A DNA stretch of 48,555 nt. Source: Acidobacteriota bacterium. Its GTDB lineage: Bacteria; Acidobacteriota; Thermoanaerobaculia; Thermoanaerobaculales; Sulfomarinibacteraceae. A program made the translations under genes and the position numbers. Of the stretch, positions 24,978 through 34,247 are shown one piece after another; position 1 is the first letter of the stretch; each line of letters begins with the position of its first letter. The DNA lies in assembly GCA_015493585.1 (NCBI GenBank), contig WGCW01000047.1, positions 1 through 48,555 of the forward strand, read 5' to 3'. The notes below the pieces were generated by a model. It saw only the letters and a list, made by a program, of their open reading frames with translations, was not told the DNA's origin and searched no databases.

Positions 24978-25005
24978 CGGGGGAAACCCCAAGACGATCG
25001 AGGTG

Positions 25006-25040
25006 TGGGCGGGACGATTGCACATGCGGCGTCCCGCCCA
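25006..25040 (+). terminator. GC-rich hairpin after serC
   Basis: TGGGCGGGACG (25006-25016) pairs perfectly with CGTCCCGCCCA (25030-25040) around a 13-base loop. It sits 29 bases after the serC stop and 37 bases before the next start codon. No T-run follows, so it is at best a weak intrinsic terminator; attenuation or mRNA stabilisation is equally possible. Confidence 0.4.
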
Positions 25041-25076
25041 TGTGATTGCTGCGTGCTGGAATCTGAGGAAGGCCTG

Positions 25077-27314
25077 ATGCGGGACGGCGCAGATCCGGGC
25101 AGAGCTGGCGATTGGCTCGACCGGGTCCTCCTTTTCGGGTGCAGGTGGCGCTGGGGTGATGGGCTGCTCACGGCCCTCACGGCGTCGTTGCTCCTCTGGT
25201 CGCGGTTTGGGCTGATGGCCTCCGGTCCCTGGGAATGGGACGAGACGCTGTTTGCAAACGGGATCTACTACTTCAGCCTGACGGCCCACTACCCGCAGCC
25301 TCCCGGCTTTCCCGGCTGGATCTGGCTGGGTCATCTTCTGTACCTGCTGACGCCAACGCCGCTTGAGGCGCTGCAGATCGCCTCTGCGTTTCTCTCGGTC
25401 ATTGCGCTCTGGCCGTTGGCGCTTCTCGGGCGCCGTGTGGCGCCCCGGCCGGTCGCGGCTCTTGCAGCCGTCTTCGTGCTGCTGCTGCCCGGACCGTGGC
25501 TCCACGCCGTCAGGGGGTTCTCCTCGGTTCCATCGGCGACGTTCGCGTTGATGGCGGCAGCGTTGCTCGCCGGCGGCCTGAGGGGCATGCGGGCCACCGC
25601 GTTTACGCTGGTCATCACCGCCGCGTTCCTGATCCGGCCGATCCTCCTGCCGGGGCTCGGATTGCTCTGGCTCGGCGGCGCTTGGACGGTCCGGCCGCTC
25701 AAGCGGCTGATTCCCGGGGTGGTGGCGGGAGTTGCGGCGGTGACCGGGTCGGTCGTGTGGATGGTCCATGCGGAGGGCGGGTGGCAACGGTTCGTGGCGG
25801 CCTTCGTCACGCATGCCGAGACCCAGGCTCACAACCTCGCGCACAACCTCGGTGGCGTGCCGGAGCTTGGCCTGGTCAAGGGGCTCGGAGGGGTGGGATG
25901 GACGTGTGTGCTGGTGGCCCTTGCCGCGACCGGTCTCGCCGTGTGGGCGCGGAAGGTCAGCCGCCGGAGCGCCTTGCTGTGGCTCGCCGTGCTCGGTGTT
26001 ACGGTCTTGCAGCTCGTCTTTCTCCAAAACCGGACCTACACCCGGTACGCTGTCCCGGTGCATCTCGCCATGGCGCCGCTCTTGGCCGCAGGCGTCGCTG
26101 CCATCATGCCGGTCGCTGGATCGATCGCCGCGTTCATCCTCGCAGGGATGCTCGCCTTCAACGTGAGCTATCCGCTGCTCGTGACGCAGCATACGGGGAA
26201 GCTGCCGGGCTGGGCCGCGGTCGAGGCGTCGTTTCCGATCGCGAAGCGGCATCATCGCGCCGTGTTGCCCGAGGCCGGGCTTTACCCGTTTGCCAACTAC
26301 CTTTGGCACGTCAAAGGGGGAGGCGTCGTCCCGCCACATCCGCCGCTGCTGCTCTCCCCGTGGGCCCCCGAGCCGTTTACCGCACCTGAGCGCTCCTGGA
26401 TCGTCGTGACCGATCATCCCGGCTGGTACCTCGGCTCGCTGACCGGAAAGCACATTCTGTGGAGCGGTGTGCCGCGCGATCTTGTGCCGTTCACTCAGGG
26501 GCGTTTCCTGAAGGCCGCGGTCATCGATGATCCGCCGTTGGCGCTGGGAAAGTGGTGGCCTCCGGAGCGCACCCCGTCCGGCATCCGGTTCATGTGGGGC
26601 TCAGCCGGGACGACGCTCGCCCTTCCTCCGCTCCCGGCATGGACCTGGATCCGGCTCGACCTCCGACCGGCGCCCGGTCAGGAACCGCTCGTAGTTCGCG
26701 CCAACGGCACAACGGTGGCCTCGCTGCCGGGCCGTTCGGGCCGGTTGGTGGTCTGGATTCCTCCGGAGCGCGTATCGGCTGACTCGATCAATCGCGTCCG
26801 CTTCGACCGCCGTGCGGTCTATCCTCCCGGTCACGGCGATCACAGGCCACTCGCCGTTCAGCTCTTTGGCGTTGAGCTCACCGGTCCCGGCGTGCCCTGG
26901 CACGGTCCTCTGGCAACTCGCGCACAACGGGCGCGTCTCCGGGTCCGGGTGACGGGCGCGTACGCTCCTGAACGTTTTCCCCGTGGCGGAACGGGGTGCT
27001 GGCTGCGTCCACATTCGGAGCTCGACGTGCCGGCCGGTTCAGGAGAGCTCGTCCTCGTGCTTGCCGCGCCGCGGCCATCACCGCCGGAGCTCGAGATTCG
27101 TACTTCCAGCGGAGCCAAGCTCGCAGGGCCGTTGCATCCCGGGCCACGGCCGGGCCGGTTCTGCCTGCATGTTCCGCCTGGAGCCGTCAAGGATGGCCGG
27201 CTTCACCTGAGACTCGAGAGCGTGGGGTTCAATCCAGCGCGCGCCGGGGTGAGTCAGGATCGCCGGGATCTTGGGGTCGTTCTGTTCGCGGCAGCCTTCG
27301 AGCCGGCACGCTGA
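25077..27314 (+). CDS. GT-C-like polytopic membrane glycosyltransferase with large C-terminal domain
   Basis: Predicted 745 residues. ATG 25077 is preceded by GAGGAAGG; the frame is open from 25005, but that part spans the hairpin. About ten membrane segments fill residues 30-385. The first external loop carries WEWDETLFANG, the acidic Asp-Glu pair typical of GT-C enzymes such as PMT/ArnT that use lipid-linked sugars, followed by the amphipathic loop before the second segment (PQPPGFPGWIW). Residues from about 390 to the end form a hydrophilic domain, presumably periplasmic, with beta-rich segments such as AWTWIRLDLRPAPGQEPL and SELDVPAGSGELVLVLAAP. The acceptor and donor are unknown, and the family assignment rests on topology plus the DE loop. 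It may be read through from serC, or have its own promoter. Confidence 0.7.
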   Translation: MRDGADPGRAGDWLDRVLLFGCRWRWGDGLLTALTASLLLWSRFGLMASGPWEWDETLFANGIYYFSLTAHYPQPPGFPGWIWLGHLLYLLTPTPLEALQIASAFLSVIALWPLALLGRRVAPRPVAALAAVFVLLLPGPWLHAVRGFSSVPSATFALMAAALLAGGLRGMRATAFTLVITAAFLIRPILLPGLGLLWLGGAWTVRPLKRLIPGVVAGVAAVTGSVVWMVHAEGGWQRFVAAFVTHAETQAHNLAHNLGGVPELGLVKGLGGVGWTCVLVALAATGLAVWARKVSRRSALLWLAVLGVTVLQLVFLQNRTYTRYAVPVHLAMAPLLAAGVAAIMPVAGSIAAFILAGMLAFNVSYPLLVTQHTGKLPGWAAVEASFPIAKRHHRAVLPEAGLYPFANYLWHVKGGGVVPPHPPLLLSPWAPEPFTAPERSWIVVTDHPGWYLGSLTGKHILWSGVPRDLVPFTQGRFLKAAVIDDPPLALGKWWPPERTPSGIRFMWGSAGTTLALPPLPAWTWIRLDLRPAPGQEPLVVRANGTTVASLPGRSGRLVVWIPPERVSADSINRVRFDRRAVYPPGHGDHRPLAVQLFGVELTGPGVPWHGPLATRAQRARLRVRVTGAYAPERFPRGGTGCWLRPHSELDVPAGSGELVLVLAAPRPSPPELEIRTSSGAKLAGPLHPGPRPGRFCLHVPPGAVKDGRLHLRLESVGFNPARAGVSQDRRDLGVVLFAAAFEPAR

Positions 27315-27351: not shown

Positions 27352-27711
27352 ATGAGGCGGCGCCGGTTTTCTCTGCTTGTGGCGGCCGCGTTCCTCGTGG
27401 CGTGGCACGGGGTGATTCTGTCCCTGCCGCACACCCATACGGCGGAACCCGATGTACCCCGGTTCGACGGCTACTGCAGCGTCGCCTACCCCGGATCTCA
27501 TCAGTTTCACATCCATCCGGAAGGGCATCAGCTCCCGCCACATTTTTGTCTCGCATGCCTGGTCCGGTCGACGACGGCGACCGCAGGCGGCTGGGCCATC
27601 TCATTCAGCCTGACATCGGCGCCGGACAGTGTGGCGACACTGTGGCGCCAGCCAGCGGCTGGAACCTGGAGAAGGCTCCCACGCAAGCGCGCTCCTCCTT
27701 GTTACGCGTGA
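27352..27711 (+). CDS. Small exported His/Cys-rich protein at head of metal-uptake locus
   Basis: Predicted 119 residues from ATG 27352; ATGs at 27337 and 27340 are in frame and possible, and none has a strong ribosome-binding site. An N-terminal RRRR plus hydrophobic stretch (FSLLVAAAFLVAWHGVIL) is a signal peptide or anchor. The exposed part is rich in potential metal ligands: LPHTHTAE, HQFHIHPEGHQLPPHFCLACLVR. This resembles the H/C-rich ends of small DUF2946-like proteins, but I cannot name a family. It stands 52 bases before the outer-membrane barrel gene of the locus. A metal-binding or sensing role outside the cytoplasm is inferred from the ligands and neighbours. A TTGACA (27316-27321) with GATGAT 17 bases on could be its promoter and would make the transcript nearly leaderless. 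Confidence 0.65.
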   Translation: MRRRRFSLLVAAAFLVAWHGVILSLPHTHTAEPDVPRFDGYCSVAYPGSHQFHIHPEGHQLPPHFCLACLVRSTTATAGGWAISFSLTSAPDSVATLWRQPAAGTWRRLPRKRAPPCYA

Positions 27712-27763
27712 CGGTGTTCGTGGCATCCTGATTGACACCATCTCGACAAGACAAGGGGGGAAT

Positions 27764-29110
27764 ATGCACCTTTTCAAGACCCCGTTGGTCATTGTGGGCC
27801 TCGCTGGCCTGATGGCCGCAACGGGCGTACGGGCTCAAGAGGCGCCGCACGCTTCCGCTCCGGCGAGCACGGCGCAGAAACTCGAACGGCTGGAGCAAAC
27901 TGTTCAGACGCTGACGTCACAACTCCAACAGGTTCAAAAGGAGCTGGCCGAGCTCAAGCACGAGCGGGCGGTTCAGAAACAACAGGAAGAGATTGCGAAG
28001 CTCCGGCAGGAGGCGGCTGCAGCGGCCGCACAACCTGCCGTTCCAGAAATTCAGCAGGTCAACACGACGACGGAATTCACGTCAGGAACGCGGATGCAGC
28101 CGCAGAACAATCCCGAGATTTCGTTCACAGGCAACATGTTCCTCGTTGGCGGGAACCATCAGCGCGAGGAGATGCAGGGCGGCGAGTTCGAGCTCGATGC
28201 CCAGTCGTACCTCGATCCGTACACACGGATGCACCTCGTGGTGAGCCACAGTCTCCCGTCCCACGGATCGACGTTCGGCCTTCCCGAAGGGGCCGATACC
28301 TACCAGGAAGGTGAAACGAGCGTTGAAGAAGGGTACATCACGTGGCTCGATCTTCCGGGGAGCACGACGTTGACCGTTGGGAAGAAGCGGCAGCAGTTCG
28401 GCGTCCTCAACCGGTGGCACAGCCACGCGCTGGATCAGGTCGATCTTCCGTGGGTGCTCCAGGAGAGCTTTGGCGACGAGGGGCTGACGGGCACGGGCGT
28501 CTCGGTTGATTGGTTGATGCCACACCTGTGGGCAACGACGAACGAGCTCACCGTTGAAGTCACCGACGGCGACAACGACGTCGCCTTCGCCGGCTCTGAT
28601 TGGAAGCACCCGACCTTCCTCGCACGCTTGAAGAACTACTGGGATCTAACAGAAAACACCTACTTCGAGGTTGGCCTCGACGCGTTGCATGGCAAAGCCG
28701 ATGAAGCGGGCCATCTCAACCATAACTTTTACGCGATGGACTGGACGTACGACTGGTATCCGGCCGGACGCGGCCACTATCACGAGTTCACGTTACGCGG
28801 CATGTTGCTGCGATCGGAACGCGACCGCTTTGACGCCCCGCAGCGTGACGCGTGGGGCGGATACACGTACGGACAGGTGAAGCTCTCGCCGCACTGGATC
28901 ACCGGGCTGCGGTACGACCGCGTCGATGATCAGCTCGTCGAAGGACACCGGTACTGGGGGTTCTCGCCGTACGTGACCTTCTGGGAATCGGAGTTCGTCC
29001 GGTTGCGCGGGCAGATGAGCTACCGCAAGGACAACTGGTACGGTGTCGATAGGCGGTTTGAGCTTCAGATTACCTTTGCGGCCGGCCCGCACAAGCACGA
29101 TCGGTACTGA
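27764..29110 (+). CDS. Outer-membrane beta-barrel protein linked to zinc uptake
   Basis: Predicted 448 residues. ATG 27764 follows AAGGGGGG by four bases. A signal peptide (MHLFKTPLVIVGLAGLMAAT, GVRA) precedes an N-terminal coiled coil (LERLEQTVQTLTSQLQQVQK to about residue 85) and then a barrel of alternating strands ending in RRFELQITFAAGPHKHDRY. The 'NPEISFTGNMFL' entry, the GGEFELDAQSYLDPYTRM strand pair and the GKKRQQFGVLNRWHSH segment match porin-like outer-membrane proteins that in many Gram-negative genomes accompany znuA. There is no TonB box or plug domain. It probably lets the metal, or a metal complex, cross the outer membrane for the binding protein encoded next, whose ribosome-binding site abuts this stop codon. 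Confidence 0.8.
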   Translation: MHLFKTPLVIVGLAGLMAATGVRAQEAPHASAPASTAQKLERLEQTVQTLTSQLQQVQKELAELKHERAVQKQQEEIAKLRQEAAAAAAQPAVPEIQQVNTTTEFTSGTRMQPQNNPEISFTGNMFLVGGNHQREEMQGGEFELDAQSYLDPYTRMHLVVSHSLPSHGSTFGLPEGADTYQEGETSVEEGYITWLDLPGSTTLTVGKKRQQFGVLNRWHSHALDQVDLPWVLQESFGDEGLTGTGVSVDWLMPHLWATTNELTVEVTDGDNDVAFAGSDWKHPTFLARLKNYWDLTENTYFEVGLDALHGKADEAGHLNHNFYAMDWTYDWYPAGRGHYHEFTLRGMLLRSERDRFDAPQRDAWGGYTYGQVKLSPHWITGLRYDRVDDQLVEGHRYWGFSPYVTFWESEFVRLRGQMSYRKDNWYGVDRRFELQITFAAGPHKHDRY

Positions 29111-29120
29111 GGAGGCATTG

Positions 29121-30161
29121 ATGAAATTCCCACGTTCATTCCTGACCGGCGCGATGATCGCGGCCTTTTTGACCCCGGCCGCTGTGTCGAGCGCCAAAGT
29201 CCATGTCGTAACGACGCTTCAAGATTATGCGGCGATTGCCAGAGACATCGGTGGCGACCGGGTCGAGGCCAAGGGGATTATTCCTGGGAACGCCGATCCG
29301 CACCACATCAAGCCGAAGCCATCGTATGCGCTGATGTTGCGCAACGCCGACCTTTTCGTCAGCACAGGCCTGGATCTCGAGCTGTGGGCTCCTGTCCTGG
29401 TCAATAAGTCCGGGAACCCGAAAATCGTCGACGGCGCGGTTGGATACGTCTCAGCGTCACAGGGCATTCATCTACTGCAAGTGCCAAAATCGATCGACCG
29501 GTCCGGTGGCGACATCCACATCTATGGGAATCCGCACATTCAAACGTCGCCGTTGAACGCGCTCATCATCGCCCGGAATATCACGACGGGTCTGTGCAAG
29601 GTCGATCTCGATGGGTGTCCTCAGTACAAGGCTAACCTCGCGCGTTTCGACCAGGAGATTGAGCAGCGGCTCTACGGGAACAATCTGATACAGCTCCTCG
29701 GTGCGGACACGCTCAACGGAATGGCCTTGAACGGCCGCCTGATCCCGTTCTTAAAGTCGCACAACCTCCTCGGCAAGCTCGGTGGATGGCTGAAGCAAGC
29801 GCTGCCGTTCCGGGGTCAGAAGATCATTTGTTACCACGAAAACTGGGTCTATTTCACGACGCTCTTCGGGCTCCACGTTGTCGATTACGTTGAAACCAAA
29901 CCTGGCATCCCTCCAACGGCACGGCACGTTGCAGCTCTGATCAAGGAAATCGAGCAGCAGCACGTTCCGGTCCTCCTCGCGGCCAATTACTTCGAGCGAA
30001 GGAAGCCGGAGGACATCGCCAAAAGAACCGGCATCATCCCTGTCATCGTGCCGACGTCGGTCGGCGGAGAACCGGGGGTCAAGACGTATTTCGATCTGAT
30101 CGATACATGGATCGGCCGGTTGCGGGATGCGTACGCCAAGGCTGGCGTGACAGCTCAGTAA
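29121..30161 (+). CDS. znuA: Metal ABC transporter substrate-binding protein (ZnuA/cluster A-I)
   Basis: Predicted 346 residues. ATG 29121 has GGAGG (29111-29115) right after the upstream stop. A Sec signal (MKFPRSFLTGAMIAAFLTPAAVSSA) is followed by VHVVTTLQDYAAIARDIGGDR, the opening of cluster A-I binding proteins for Zn, Mn or Fe. Probable ligands are His61 (DPHHIKPKPS), His139 (GNPHIQTSP) and His239 (CYHENW), which match the three His of ZnuA-type sites; a fourth acidic ligand is not obvious, and the 'TDSLA'-like segment reads PTSVGGEPG. The His-rich loop of E. coli ZnuA is missing. It captures metal in the periplasm and passes it to the permease encoded next. Zinc is favoured by the ligands and the locus, but manganese is not excluded. 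Confidence 0.85.
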   Translation: MKFPRSFLTGAMIAAFLTPAAVSSAKVHVVTTLQDYAAIARDIGGDRVEAKGIIPGNADPHHIKPKPSYALMLRNADLFVSTGLDLELWAPVLVNKSGNPKIVDGAVGYVSASQGIHLLQVPKSIDRSGGDIHIYGNPHIQTSPLNALIIARNITTGLCKVDLDGCPQYKANLARFDQEIEQRLYGNNLIQLLGADTLNGMALNGRLIPFLKSHNLLGKLGGWLKQALPFRGQKIICYHENWVYFTTLFGLHVVDYVETKPGIPPTARHVAALIKEIEQQHVPVLLAANYFERRKPEDIAKRTGIIPVIVPTSVGGEPGVKTYFDLIDTWIGRLRDAYAKAGVTAQ

Positions 30162-30171
30162 TGTGTACACA

Positions 30172-30204
30172 CGGGTACGGGAGGCGTTCAGTCTCCCGTA
30201 CCCG
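30172..30204 (+). other. Strong intercistronic hairpin between binding protein and permease genes
   Basis: CGGGTACGGGAG (30172-30183) pairs perfectly with CTCCCGTACCCG (30193-30204) over a nine-base loop, 10 bases after the znuA-like stop codon and 26 bases before the permease start. A ten-base palindrome TGTGTACACA (30163-30172) lies directly upstream. No T-run follows. It probably stabilises the upstream message or lowers expression of the permease relative to the binding protein, as is common in ABC importer operons. Confidence 0.6.
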
Positions 30205-30230
30205 CGTAGCTTCAGACTTTGGAGGAGCCC

Positions 30231-31064
30231 ATGATGGAAATGCTCTCGTTCATGGCTGCACCGTTCGCCGCGTGCCTTGTTCTCGTTGGTATCCACGCGT
30301 ATTTCGGCATTCACATTATCGAAAGACGAGTCCTGTTCGTCGATCTCGCCGTCGCACAGTTTGCGGCACTGGGCGCAGTTGTGGGGTTCGCCGCTGGCCA
30401 CCATCCTGGCTCGCTAGGATCCACGCTCTTCGCCATGGGGTTTGCCTCGATCGCGGCGGGTATCTTTGCTATCACACGCATGCGGTATGAGAAGCTGCCG
30501 CAGGAGGCGATCATCGGGATTACCTTCGTCGTTGCGTCGGCGGCCGCGATCCTGGTTGCCGACAAGGCGCCGGAGGGTGCCGAGCACATCAAGGAGACGC
30601 TGGCTGGCAGCCTTCTGTGGGTCACGTGGCCCACGGTCATCAAAGATCTGATCATCTACTCGGCCGTCGGGCTGTTTCACTGGTTGCTTCGCAAGCGCTT
30701 TTTGCTGATCAGCTTCGATCCCGGTGAGGCGTATCGCCGCGGGTGGAAGATCCGGTGGTGGGATTTCCTCTTCTACCTCTCCTTCGGCATCATCATTACG
30801 TTTTCCGTGGAAATCGGCGGCATCCTGATGGTCTTCAGCTATCTGGTCATCCCGGCTTGTATCGCCATTCTACTGGCGACGAACATGAAGACGAGGCTGA
30901 TCCTGGGGTGGGGGATCGGGTGGCTGGGATCGGCACTTGGGCTCGTGGCTTCGTACGTGTGGGACTTCCCGACCGGTCCGGCCATTGTCGTTGTGCTCGG
31001 ATTGATACTGATCGTTGCGTGGCTGGCCGACCTGACACGCCGGAATCTTGTGGCGGTAAAATAA
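30231..31064 (+). CDS. znuB: Metal ABC transporter permease (ZnuB family)
   Basis: Predicted 277 residues with about eight membrane segments. GGAGGAG (30221-30227) precedes ATG 30231; ATG 30234 is equally possible. The opening MLSFMAAPFAACLVLVGIHAYFGIHIIERRVLFVDLAVAQFAALG is the ABC-3 permease signature, in which a bound membrane helix follows the 'R-x-x-F-x-D-x-x-x-A-Q' stretch. The coupling region with the ATPase appears as SFDPGEAYRRGWKIRWWD, and GILMVFSYLVIPACIAILL is the conserved late helix. It moves the metal delivered by the binding protein across the inner membrane. No ATPase gene follows, so the partner must be encoded elsewhere. The next gene begins 14 bases downstream. Confidence 0.9.
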   Translation: MMEMLSFMAAPFAACLVLVGIHAYFGIHIIERRVLFVDLAVAQFAALGAVVGFAAGHHPGSLGSTLFAMGFASIAAGIFAITRMRYEKLPQEAIIGITFVVASAAAILVADKAPEGAEHIKETLAGSLLWVTWPTVIKDLIIYSAVGLFHWLLRKRFLLISFDPGEAYRRGWKIRWWDFLFYLSFGIIITFSVEIGGILMVFSYLVIPACIAILLATNMKTRLILGWGIGWLGSALGLVASYVWDFPTGPAIVVVLGLILIVAWLADLTRRNLVAVK

Positions 31065-31078
31065 CGCTGGAGGCAGGT

Positions 31079-32248
31079 ATGAAACATGTTGCCGTTGTTG
31101 TGATGTTTGCCAGCGCGTTGATCGCCGCGTCCGTGGCCTCGGCCGGAGGACCGACACGGGCACAGGTCGAGAAGATCATGGGGTTGCGCTCGGAAGGGGA
31201 TCTCGTGCGCGGCCAAATGGACGCGGTCGGTTTCGTCGTCACGGCCGACCAGGCTGAAGACGTGTTGACCCATGCGATTGAGGCTGAGTCAAAGGGGCTG
31301 GCCGCCGACCGGATCAGGTTGCACCTGGCCCCGGGAGAGGGGGTTCCCGCGGTCGTGTGCCCACATGACGATCACCTGTACGCCGCGCGCGTCTACGTCC
31401 ATGCGACCCAGCTGATTCGTGCGCCGCGGGTCATCATGATCGGTGTGTTCCACAAGGCCAGATTATGGAATCTGTCGGATCGTCTCGTCTTCGACCGGTT
31501 CGAGGCGTGGCACGGACCGTGGGGACCGGTGCGCGTGGATCCGCTCCGGCAGGAGCTCCTGGCCCGCATGCCAGCCGGCGATGTCATCATCAGCGATACG
31601 ATGCACTGCCGGGAGCACTCGCTCGAAGCGATCGTCCCATTCCTGGAGTACGGAAACCGCCACGTGCGCATCGTGCCGATCCTGGTACCGTACATGGGCT
31701 GGAACCGGATGTCGGAGCTGGCCGATCATTTGTCGTCGGCATTGGCCGGGATCATGACGAAGCACCACTGGACGTTTGGCAAAGATGTCGCCATCGTCAT
31801 CTCGACTGATCTGGTCCACTACGGTCCAGATTTTGACTATGCACCCTTCGGAACGGACATGAAGGCGTACGCGGAGGCGACCGCTCAGGATCATCGTTTG
31901 ATTCACGATGATCTTGAAGGACCGTTGAGCGCATCCCATCTGCACACGCTCCTCGATCAGCTCGTTGATCCTTCCGATCCACACATCTATACCATTCCGT
32001 GGTGTGGCCGCTTCTCCGTACCGTTTGGTCTCGAGATGTTCCGGCAGACGGCGGCGAAGCTCCACCTTCCCGATCCGGTGGGAACGCTGCTGCGGTACGG
32101 AACGAGCCTCTCCGAGCCCGAGCTGCCCGTTTCGCAGCAGACCCGTCAGGAGGGCCTTGGGTACACAGCGCCGTCCAACTTTTACCACTGGGTGGGTTAC
32201 GGCGCGATCGCCTACGTGATGCCCAAAGGAACTGTGGCAGGCAGATAA
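31079..32248 (+). CDS. Secreted MEMO-family (AmmeMemoRadiSam protein B-like) metalloprotein
   Basis: Predicted 389 residues. A signal peptide (MKHVAVVVMFASALIAASVASA) is present, which is unusual because most MEMO/AMMECR-associated proteins are cytosolic. The MEMO fold motifs are in order: CPHDDHLY with His96, GVFHK with His125, REHSLEAIVPFLEY with His180, STDLVHYG with His247 and PWCGRFSV with Cys309. From memory, His96, His125, His247 and Cys309 line up with the His49/His81/His192/Cys244 pocket of human MEMO1, which binds copper or iron. The start follows GGAGG and comes 14 bases after the permease stop, so it is the last gene of the metal-uptake transcript. A periplasmic or lipid-exposed metal-binding or redox role is inferred; the radical SAM and AMMECR1 partners of the cytosolic system are not nearby. 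Confidence 0.85.
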   Translation: MKHVAVVVMFASALIAASVASAGGPTRAQVEKIMGLRSEGDLVRGQMDAVGFVVTADQAEDVLTHAIEAESKGLAADRIRLHLAPGEGVPAVVCPHDDHLYAARVYVHATQLIRAPRVIMIGVFHKARLWNLSDRLVFDRFEAWHGPWGPVRVDPLRQELLARMPAGDVIISDTMHCREHSLEAIVPFLEYGNRHVRIVPILVPYMGWNRMSELADHLSSALAGIMTKHHWTFGKDVAIVISTDLVHYGPDFDYAPFGTDMKAYAEATAQDHRLIHDDLEGPLSASHLHTLLDQLVDPSDPHIYTIPWCGRFSVPFGLEMFRQTAAKLHLPDPVGTLLRYGTSLSEPELPVSQQTRQEGLGYTAPSNFYHWVGYGAIAYVMPKGTVAGR

Positions 32249-32321
32249 CAGGCAGGAGTGCTGTCTTCCGCTGTGGTTATGAGGCGGGATTTCCTTGTCC
32301 AGACGGGACTTCAAGGCACGC

Positions 32322-32327
32322 TATACT
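32322..32327 (+). promoter_or_regulatory. Possible -10 element upstream of the deacetylase operon
   Basis: TATACT matches five of six bases of TATAAT. No -35 box is found at the usual spacing (TTGTCC lies 21 bases upstream), so the promoter call is weak. Transcription from here would start near 32334, ahead of the ATG at 32358. Confidence 0.3.
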
Positions 32328-32357
32328 CGGACCGTGAGCTCTGCGAACGATGCTGCG

Positions 32358-34247
32358 ATGGCGGGACAGGTGGGTGTAGCGAAACGGCGATGCGGTCCCG
32401 GATGCCGGTTTGTCCAACGTGTGAGGCGGGGGTGGCGGATCTTCTGCAGGGCGTGCAGGCGCAGGCGCGTCCGGTTTATTTTTCACGCGGATTACAGTCT
32501 CTCCATTCCTGGCGTTCCGATGGACCCGGTGCGCGCGGAGCGGATCCTCGCCGTCCTGACCGAGGAGGGGCTGGCCGTTGATTCTGACATCGTTCCGCCG
32601 AGGCGAGCGTCCCTCAACCACCTGCTCCTGGTTCATACGCCCGAGTACCTCGAATCACTCCAGCAACCGCAGGGGCTGACAGAAGCGCTTGGGTTTCCCG
32701 TCGACGAGCGAACCCGCGAGCAGTTTGTGGATTTTCAACGGCGGATGACGGGTGGAACGATTCAGGCGACGCGTTTCGCCCTGATCTCCGGTGGAATCGG
32801 TATCAATCTTGGGGGCGGTTTTCATCATGCGCTCCCACAACGTGCGATGGGTTTCTGCGTTTTCAACGACATTGCCGTTGCGATCGCAAGGCTCCGGGCT
32901 CACGGTTTTCGTGCGCCGGTGCTGGTCGTCGATCTCGATCTTCACGATGGAAACGGAACCCGTGAGATCTTCGCCAACGATCGGACCGTGTACACGTATT
33001 CGGTGCACAACGCTCACTGGGGCGATACGAGTGCCGTTTCCTCGACAGCGATCGAGCTCGGAGAGGGAGTCACCGACGAGGTCTACCTTGGGACACTCCT
33101 CAAGACCTTGCCTGACATTGTGACCAAGCAGAAACCGGGTCTCGTCATCTACGTAGCTGGCTGTGACATTGCACGGGATGACCAGCTCGGCAACTGGAAG
33201 ATCTCTCCCGATGGGGTGCTGGCCCGGGACAGGTTCGTCATTCAGACCGTTCGTGAACAGAACCATAAGATTCCGCTCGCGATTGTGCTCGGAGGTGGCT
33301 ATGGGCCCCGCTCCTGGCAGTATTCGGCCCGGTTTCTCTTCTGGCTGATGACCGGGAAGACGCAAGAGATCCCTGACTCCGACGAGCTGGCGTTGATGCG
33401 CGTGCGGAAGATTTGGAGCCAGCTCAATCCGAGCGAGCTGACGTCCGAGCCAAATGGATTCTCCCTGCGCCTGACGGACGAGGATCTTGCCGACATCATG
33501 CCTGGTGGCACCACCCATGGCAGGTTCCTCGACTATTTTTCCCGCCACGGCGTGGAACTCCTGATGGAGAAGCTCGGGCTCCTCGCCCAGCTTCGGACAT
33601 TGGGTTTTCACAACCCGTTTCTCGAAATTGACCTGACCCATCCGCTTGGGAGCACCCTTCGCGTGTGGAGTGATTGGCGCCGGGCGGAGCTCCTGATCGA
33701 GCTCCGGGCCAGGCGAAGCCAGGGTGAAATCCCCGGTATGGAGGTGCTGGTTTTAGAATGGCTGCTGCTGCAGAATCCCCGGGCCAGGTTTACGGGAGAG
33801 CGTCCCCCCTTGCCGGGTCAAAAGCACCCGGGGCTCGGGATGTTGTCCGACGTCCTTGGGTGGCTCGTCTCGATCTGTGAGATGCTGCACCTCGACGGCG
33901 TGGTGTACGTCCCCTCGCACTATCATGTGGCGGCTCAAAGCCGGAAGCTCGTCAGGTTTCTCAAGCCGGAGGACGAAGCCCGGTACCGGGCTCTCGGAGA
34001 GGCATTTGCAGGGATTCCGTTGCATGAGGCGACACGATTGCTCGAACGGGGTGACGTTCAGGATGTGCGGACGGGCGAACGGGTGCGATGGGAAGGACGG
34101 CGCATGGTTTTGCCGGTTTCAGAGAAGTTGAAACGGTTGGTGTTCTCGCCAGAATATGAGTCCCGTGTCCGCGAGGCGTTGCAGGATCTCCGGTACGAGA
34201 TTGTCTCAGCGGAGCGCGAGGAGGGAGCGTTGACAACCGATGGCTGA
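32358..34247 (+). CDS. Histone-deacetylase-family hydrolase with uncharacterised C-terminal half
   Basis: Predicted about 629 residues; the start is uncertain (ATG 32358, GTG 32421 and ATG 32520 are in frame, none with a good ribosome-binding site). Family homology begins at FIFHADYSLSIPGVPMDPVRAERIL. The arginase/deacetylase core follows with the His-His dyad in GGGFHHALPQRAMGFCVFND (about 32813-32872), zinc ligands in DLDLHDGNGT (about 32932-32961) and AGCDIARDDQLG, and the transition-state Tyr in LGGGYGPRSW (about 33289-33318). All catalytic residues are kept, so it should deacylate an amine or ester. The last 280 residues (after 33370) are unrelated to the deacetylase core; they include GQKHPGLGMLSDVLGWL and VVYVPSHYHVAAQSRKL. 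The stop overlaps the SDR gene by eight bases, which ties it to the two redox enzymes. Substrate unknown. Confidence 0.88.
   Translation: MAGQVGVAKRRCGPGCRFVQRVRRGWRIFCRACRRRRVRFIFHADYSLSIPGVPMDPVRAERILAVLTEEGLAVDSDIVPPRRASLNHLLLVHTPEYLESLQQPQGLTEALGFPVDERTREQFVDFQRRMTGGTIQATRFALISGGIGINLGGGFHHALPQRAMGFCVFNDIAVAIARLRAHGFRAPVLVVDLDLHDGNGTREIFANDRTVYTYSVHNAHWGDTSAVSSTAIELGEGVTDEVYLGTLLKTLPDIVTKQKPGLVIYVAGCDIARDDQLGNWKISPDGVLARDRFVIQTVREQNHKIPLAIVLGGGYGPRSWQYSARFLFWLMTGKTQEIPDSDELALMRVRKIWSQLNPSELTSEPNGFSLRLTDEDLADIMPGGTTHGRFLDYFSRHGVELLMEKLGLLAQLRTLGFHNPFLEIDLTHPLGSTLRVWSDWRRAELLIELRARRSQGEIPGMEVLVLEWLLLQNPRARFTGERPPLPGQKHPGLGMLSDVLGWLVSICEMLHLDGVVYVPSHYHVAAQSRKLVRFLKPEDEARYRALGEAFAGIPLHEATRLLERGDVQDVRTGERVRWEGRRMVLPVSEKLKRLVFSPEYESRVREALQDLRYEIVSAEREEGALTTDG

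Follow-up and report, generated by a model that had tools for sequence, protein, structure and literature searches.

A widespread barrel–ZnuA–ZnuB cassette without a linked ATPase, headed by a probable metal-sensing leader peptide

Binding-protein-dependent importers of the ATP-binding cassette (ABC)-3 fold are taken to be ATP-driven, which raises the question of how a locus encoding the binding protein and the permease of such a system, and no ATPase, would take up its metal. A locus of this kind lies in an Acidobacteriota bacterium (GenBank assembly GCA_015493585.1; family Sulfomarinibacteraceae) on contig WGCW01000047.1, of which we analysed a stretch of 48,555 nucleotides (nt), hereafter the window. 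An earlier note had described five genes, encoding in order a small His/Cys protein, an outer-membrane barrel, ZnuA, ZnuB and a secreted MEMO-family protein, with no ATPase gene among them. That order and its coordinates proved correct, and Pfam matches support the ZnuA, ZnuB and MEMO assignments (Table 1); the barrel and the small protein gave no convincing match in a Pfam search of the window's proteins. The host genome (3.1 Mb, 99.6% complete) contains one ABC-3 permease and one ZnuA, both encoded here, so that its sole ZnuA/ABC-3 locus is indeed one without its own ATPase. We propose that the locus probably represents a widespread envelope metal-uptake cassette comprising an upstream open reading frame (uORF), a histidine-bearing 16-strand porin, ZnuA and an ABC-3-fold permease that lacks an ATPase of its own, with a proposed translational switch at its head.

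Loci were collected from ZnuB homologues in the host's class and from a scan of contigs with a ZnuB alignment, and removal of duplicates left 109. ZnuA is encoded at all 109 and the barrel at 101, and no further gene holds a constant position; the conserved unit is barrel–ZnuA–ZnuB. It occurs under about 20 phylum names. The record titles name Acidobacteriota, Gemmatimonadota, Planctomycetota, Bacteroidota, Calditrichota, KSB1, Latescibacterota, Omnitrophota and Elusimicrobia, and also Nitrospirota, Bdellovibrionales, Myxococcales, Desulfuromonadales, Krumholzibacteriota, Poribacteria, NC10, Rokuibacteriota and Binatota, among others; most of these records are metagenome-assembled genomes (MAGs), and single taxon labels are not dependable. 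The usual order is broken at one planctomycete locus (L171), where the homologues of the barrel and of ZnuA are encoded several kilobases from znuB and on the other strand. In one Nitrospirota MAG the cassette is closely followed by a gene that by eye encodes an ArsR-like regulator (L198, 8213-8524). A different arrangement, two tandem ABC-3 permease genes whose products share 39% and 34% identity with the window ZnuB, is found within the host's own family (G001:C365:6862-8492).

No ABC ATPase gene was found inside or directly behind the trio at 40 loci of the class and 80 cross-phylum loci, two samples that overlap in part, and none of the 109 operons encodes its own. Canonical ABC-3 permeases fetched from the same class served as the control: 38 of the 40 have an ATPase open reading frame (ORF) within 700 nt, and for the two misses no ATPase ORF lay on the stretch fetched. 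The dedicated ATPase that ZnuABC systems encode with their permease is therefore absent from the cassette, and among open-access full texts, taken without supplements, we found no description of an ATPase-less ABC-3 system. An ATPase fused to the longer ZnuB proteins was considered and rejected, as their extensions comprise an extra transmembrane segment, a His-rich stretch and HEAT-like repeats. Such C-terminal extensions occur in about two dozen ZnuB proteins of the cassette (L098, L101, L102, L156, L159, L162, L164, L166, L171, L179, L180, L184, L186, L188, L190, L191, L196, L199, L200, L204, L207 and others), in which the additional transmembrane segment is often followed by the His-rich stretch and then by a helical domain, in some cases of HEAT repeats, that is probably periplasmic.

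The permease itself has diverged from its canonical relatives. The predicted ZnuB structure (predicted local distance difference test score, pLDDT, of 91.5) superimposes on PsaC with a template-modelling score of about 0.8, and the ZnuB proteins of the cassette form one clade (support 100/99) on a long stem, although the placement of the root is unsure because some canonical branches in the tree are long. Among 112 cassette ZnuB proteins, Y24, G26, H28, R32, F36, D38, A42, Q43, E92, W177, D178, F181 and Y182 are invariant. In PsaC, Asp46 and His50 form the transmembrane manganese site and Phe121 acts as the gate (PMC11779740). The cassette proteins carry Leu39 in place of Asp46 in 109 of 112 cases (Ile in the rest), Gln43 in place of His50 in all 112, and Lys or Arg in place of Phe121 in 105; the Asp46/His50 metal site characteristic of ZnuABC is missing. 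Canonical permeases of the class keep His50 in 46 of 49 sequences, and His50 is the better marker because Asp46 is kept in only 24 of the 49. The coupling helix has changed as well: F162 is found in 21 of 112 cassette proteins versus 40 of 49 canonical ones, D163 in 49 of 112 versus 46 of 49, and G171 in 101 of 112 versus 48 of 49, and P173, the top residue in canonical permeases (35 of 49), is not among the four commonest in the cassette. The profile of this helix falls between those of the ABC-3 and FecCD families and fits both poorly, and the idea that it copies the FecCD docking helix was rejected on that poor fit. Taken together, the ligand and coupling-helix changes lead us to lean towards a loss or change of ATPase coupling, as judged from the alignments. 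In one ZnuB (L119, genome G029), five residues of the coupling helix that docks the ATPase are missing. Like ZnuABC, PsaBCA and AztABC (cluster A-I), the cassette pairs a ZnuA-type protein bearing the three canonical histidines with a permease of the PF00950 fold; unlike them, it has no linked ATPase, replaces the ligand and gate residues with Leu/Gln and Lys, has invariant residues of its own and includes an extra porin gene.

Whether ZnuB transports independently of ATP we regard as evenly balanced. The earlier note had assumed a shared ATPase encoded elsewhere, and the best-surviving alternative develops that assumption: an ordinary ABC importer would borrow its ATPase in trans, most likely the BtuD-type enzyme of a cobalamin or siderophore operon. 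We consider this a serious possibility, albeit one that is rather more probably wrong than right. Several observations speak for it and weigh against an ATPase-free ZnuB. The permease retains the type-II importer fold, and its coupling helix retains Ala167 and, mostly, Gly171; a FecCD permease and a type-II ATPase are present in all 13 near-complete genomes checked; by a hand count, 33 of the 34 module-bearing genomes of the class that are at least 90% complete encode a BtuD-type ATPase at E≤1e-35; and a single locus (L156, 2226-4047) has a FecCD–ATPase pair immediately ahead of the cassette in the same orientation. Against borrowing stand the uniform lack of an ATPase gene in the operons and a docking helix unlike that of either ABC-3 or FecCD partners (its mean log-odds is -6, where the two groups score -29 and +27). 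Among the 34 genomes, G034 (96% complete) is alone in carrying the module without an ATPase of this kind. In a set of 50 genomes from other phyla, seven carry the module but lack both a strong FecCD permease and a type-II ATPase; those seven are mostly MAGs of unestablished completeness, and about that many could be missed through gaps. Type-II ATPases are also equally common in class genomes with and without the module, so their co-occurrence with it is uninformative.

An unlikely variant is that ZnuB has its own, divergent ATPase, the gene for which lies elsewhere. Generic ABC ATPases are abundant in every genome and the coupling helix has diverged rather than been erased, yet in the 13 near-complete genomes almost every ATPase with an AztA-model score of more than about 135 bits is encoded beside a FecCD or canonical ABC-3 permease. 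No partnerless type-II-like enzyme stands among the top scorers, bar borderline cases that were not inspected: in G036 the best AztA-like ATPase lies about 16 kb from a FecCD gene, and G037, G058 and G134 hold a few ATPases at about 125 bits. In the host genome, the best AztA/ZnuC-like match (on contig C51) was rejected as a hidden ZnuC, as it belongs to a FecCD/BtuF-type (BtuC/BtuF) operon. A shared ATPase, as in the earlier note, may still serve ZnuB; in the near-complete genomes the high-scoring candidates almost all belong with other permeases, and a few module-bearing genomes have no candidate.

The other two members of the conserved unit suggest what it carries. AlphaFold2 predicts the barrel (pLDDT 87.9) to comprise 16 strands behind a coiled coil, and its top Foldseek matches are the general and specific porins Omp32, OmpT, OprP and DcaP, not TonB receptors. 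The barrel shares its 16 strands with porins such as Omp32, OprP and DcaP and differs from them in its N-terminal coiled coil, its fixed linkage to ZnuA and three conserved histidines, His219 (87 of 87 sequences), His221 (78 of 87) and His443 (86 of 87). In ZnuA, H61, H133, H139, H239 and E258 are kept in all 107 sequences. These conserved His and Glu residues of the barrel and ZnuA point towards a metal as the substrate. The ZnuA type of the binding protein makes zinc the obvious guess, and copper is possible because of the leader described below.

The secreted MEMO protein, in contrast, does not belong to the conserved unit. The earlier note had seen it as a part of the uptake system that might load, reduce or buffer the transported metal in the periplasm. 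Its description of the protein stands: the N-terminus is hydrophobic and signal-peptide-like, and among nine aligned secreted orthologues the pocket residues H96, H247 and C309 are kept in all nine and H125 in eight, the ninth showing an unresolved X. A direct phmmer search of the PDB with the secreted protein gave no match; a canonical MEMO of the same genome, which encodes three MEMO proteins, matched MEMO1, and the pocket residues correspond to MEMO1 motifs. Metal binding is plausible because these residues are conserved and have MEMO1 counterparts; human MEMO1 is reported to bind reduced copper (PMC9477392) and iron (PMC11081632). The window protein matches PF01875/TIGR04336 with all four pocket residues, as do MEMO1 and AmmeMemoRadiSam protein B, and differs from them in having a signal peptide and, in most relatives, a stand-alone gene.

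A functional role for MEMO in uptake we consider improbable. Its gene is adjacent to and co-directional with znuB in the host's genus (the host and G007) and adjacent in a second genus (G012), where a gene that by eye is Sir2-like is inserted between the two on the opposite strand. Of the 20 family genomes, however, 11 encode a secreted MEMO orthologue, and in the other eight of these 11 the gene stands alone among unrelated genes; only 1 of 80 cross-phylum loci shows the adjacency, and it is the G012 contig again. Several family genomes, such as G013, G014, G017 and G018, carry the trio without a secreted MEMO. The adjacency on whose conservation the uptake view partly depended is thus mostly not conserved, and synteny led us to reject MEMO as a core component: it is a local, lineage-specific neighbour, which may be an accessory acquired or placed at the locus in one lineage. 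Beside it stand two unrelated types of deacetylase gene, one of the histone-deacetylase family downstream in the genus (window 32295-34247) and the Sir2-like one in G012 (L050, 11553-12389).

The head of the operon offers a candidate for its control. The small protein of the window ends in RAPP, a feature that the earlier note had missed. At loci with enough upstream sequence, 74 of 90 have an ORF upstream of the barrel that ends in R[AGS]PP, compared with 1.8% of other ORF tails at the same loci; the endings are RAPP in 51, RGPP in 18 and RSPP in 5, with the motif within 14 residues of the stop, and several of the remaining leaders end in TSPP, KAPP, HAPP or NSPP. The leader lies 34-259 nt from the barrel gene (median 91). 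A CxxC motif precedes R[AGS]PP by 40-46 residues (median 44; 59 loci), and HxH or HH is found in 54 of 81 leaders. In CruR of Bordetella pertussis, CXXC and RAPP are 45 residues apart, expression of the next gene needs RAPP, and copper perception through CXXC relieves the RAPP effect (PMC9426467); CutF is a related case in which a stem-loop masks the Shine-Dalgarno (SD) sequence (PMC9973294). Experiments place both RAPP and RGPP among the strong arrest motifs (PMC12992588).

By analogy, the small protein is probably a uORF of the CruR/CutF type and a likely regulator of the cassette. The link rests on architecture because the match to DUF2946 (PF11162) is sub-threshold, at 12.8 bits for the window protein and 17.3 for the best sampled (cut-off 23.7). 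As in CruR and CutF (PMC9426467, PMC9973294), the leader is the first gene, has an exported or membrane N-terminus and combines CxxC with a C-terminal RAPP or RGPP at a spacing of about 44-45; it departs from them in its low DUF2946 score, in the extra HxH of many members, in heading a ZnuA/ABC-3 operon and, in the window, in arrest codons that themselves pair with the SD. In the main texts searched, uORFs of this type serve copper systems, His-only types have HupE/UreJ nickel/cobalt neighbours, and we found no mention of ZnuA or ABC permeases downstream. That the small protein is instead a structural or chaperone component binding metal in the periplasm, its ending incidental, would fit its signal or transmembrane segment and His/Cys ligands and is nonetheless very unlikely, given that otherwise dissimilar leaders share the extreme C-terminal motif, its spacing to CxxC and the CruR/DUF2946 layout, and that their Pro codons show CCT bias and SD pairing.

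The arrest codons may have a second role. In the predicted minimum free energy (MFE) structure of the window leader, the RAPP codons pair with the SD region of the barrel gene, with a Pro-codon:SD-zone probability of 0.985. In a set of 75 loci, CCT is the first Pro codon in 52%, whereas it makes up 11% of the Pro codons of those operons (p ~1e-18). A pairing probability above 0.3 between the Pro codons and the SD is reached at 27% of loci; the corresponding figure is 4% for other hexamers and 5% when the codons are recoded to CCGCCG. Loci with CCTCC account for most of this signal (18 of 39, versus 2 of 36 without). Barrel leaders are more structured than ZnuA leaders (mean z -0.90 versus -0.15), although for its composition the window leader shows no unusual stability (z -0.37). 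The generality of such a hairpin is tempered by its strong form occurring at only about a quarter of loci; those without it may rely on Rho termination, as in CruR, or on other structures, and CCT could be favoured for stalling itself. A search for Zur- and Fur-like boxes, which the earlier note had suggested, found none beyond chance with E. coli-type consensus sequences, and Rfam gave no match.

From the computed gene order, missing linked ATPase, permease clade, conserved ligands and CxxC-44-RAPP layout, we infer which metal might be carried, how stalling might control the operon and in which direction, and what might energise transport. When the metal, zinc or copper, is scarce, ribosomes would stall at RAPP and cover the codons that otherwise pair with the SD of the barrel gene; the SD would then be free, and the porin, probably with the genes behind it, would be made. 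When metal is available, it would bind the emerging CxxC/HxH segment and release the stall, allowing the hairpin to form and switching the operon off. The metal would pass from the porin to ZnuA and on to ZnuB. With less confidence, we suggest that ZnuB needs no ATP-hydrolysing partner of its own and is powered instead by an ion gradient or by downstream binding, in a step that would use its new invariant H, D, E, K and Q residues.

Table 1. Features of the metal-uptake locus in window coordinates
Feature	Position	Strand	Description and basis
Small protein (uORF)	27352..27711	+	119 amino acids; exported/membrane; PHTH, CLAC, C-terminal RAPP; probable CruR/CutF-type nascent-chain metal sensor
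Predicted hairpin, 5′ arm, RAPP codons (gcT CCT CCT TGT T)	27693..27703	+	ViennaRNA MFE of 27661-27790
Predicted hairpin, 3′ arm, SD region of the barrel gene (gacaagggggg)	27750..27760	+	ViennaRNA MFE
Barrel	27764..29110	+	Outer-membrane 16-strand porin with N-terminal coiled coil; AlphaFold2 and Foldseek; conserved H219, H221, H443
ZnuA	29121..30161	+	ZnuA-type periplasmic binding protein; PF01297, 157 bits; PDB matches include ZnuA-type proteins
ZnuB	30231..31064	+	ABC-3-like permease, distinct clade without linked ATPase; PF00950, 108 bits (cut-off 20.1)
MEMO	31079..32248	+	MEMO-family protein with signal peptide; lineage-specific neighbour outside the conserved cassette; PF01875, 79 bits (cut-off 27)

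Upstream of the operon, positions 25002-27314 of the window encode a 770-residue membrane protein that has no Pfam match at E≤0.01 and by eye is glycosyltransferase-like.

A strictly conserved version of such a system, found under many phylum names without a linked ATPase and with invariant residues of its own, asks whether an ABC permease can run without its motor, a question that is directly testable. Tentatively, and slightly on the doubtful side of even, we propose that the cassette defines an ABC-3-fold, binding-protein-dependent importer family that dispenses with ATP hydrolysis: a secondary transporter or gated channel, spread over about 20 phyla, with a dedicated porin and a metal-sensing stalling leader, the arrest codons of which can also serve as the anti-Shine-Dalgarno strand. 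Through these leader peptides, nascent-chain metal sensing, so far mainly a matter of copper, would be extended to ZnuA-type uptake, and the peptides suggest a minimal switch in which the codons that stall the ribosome also block the next ribosome-binding site.

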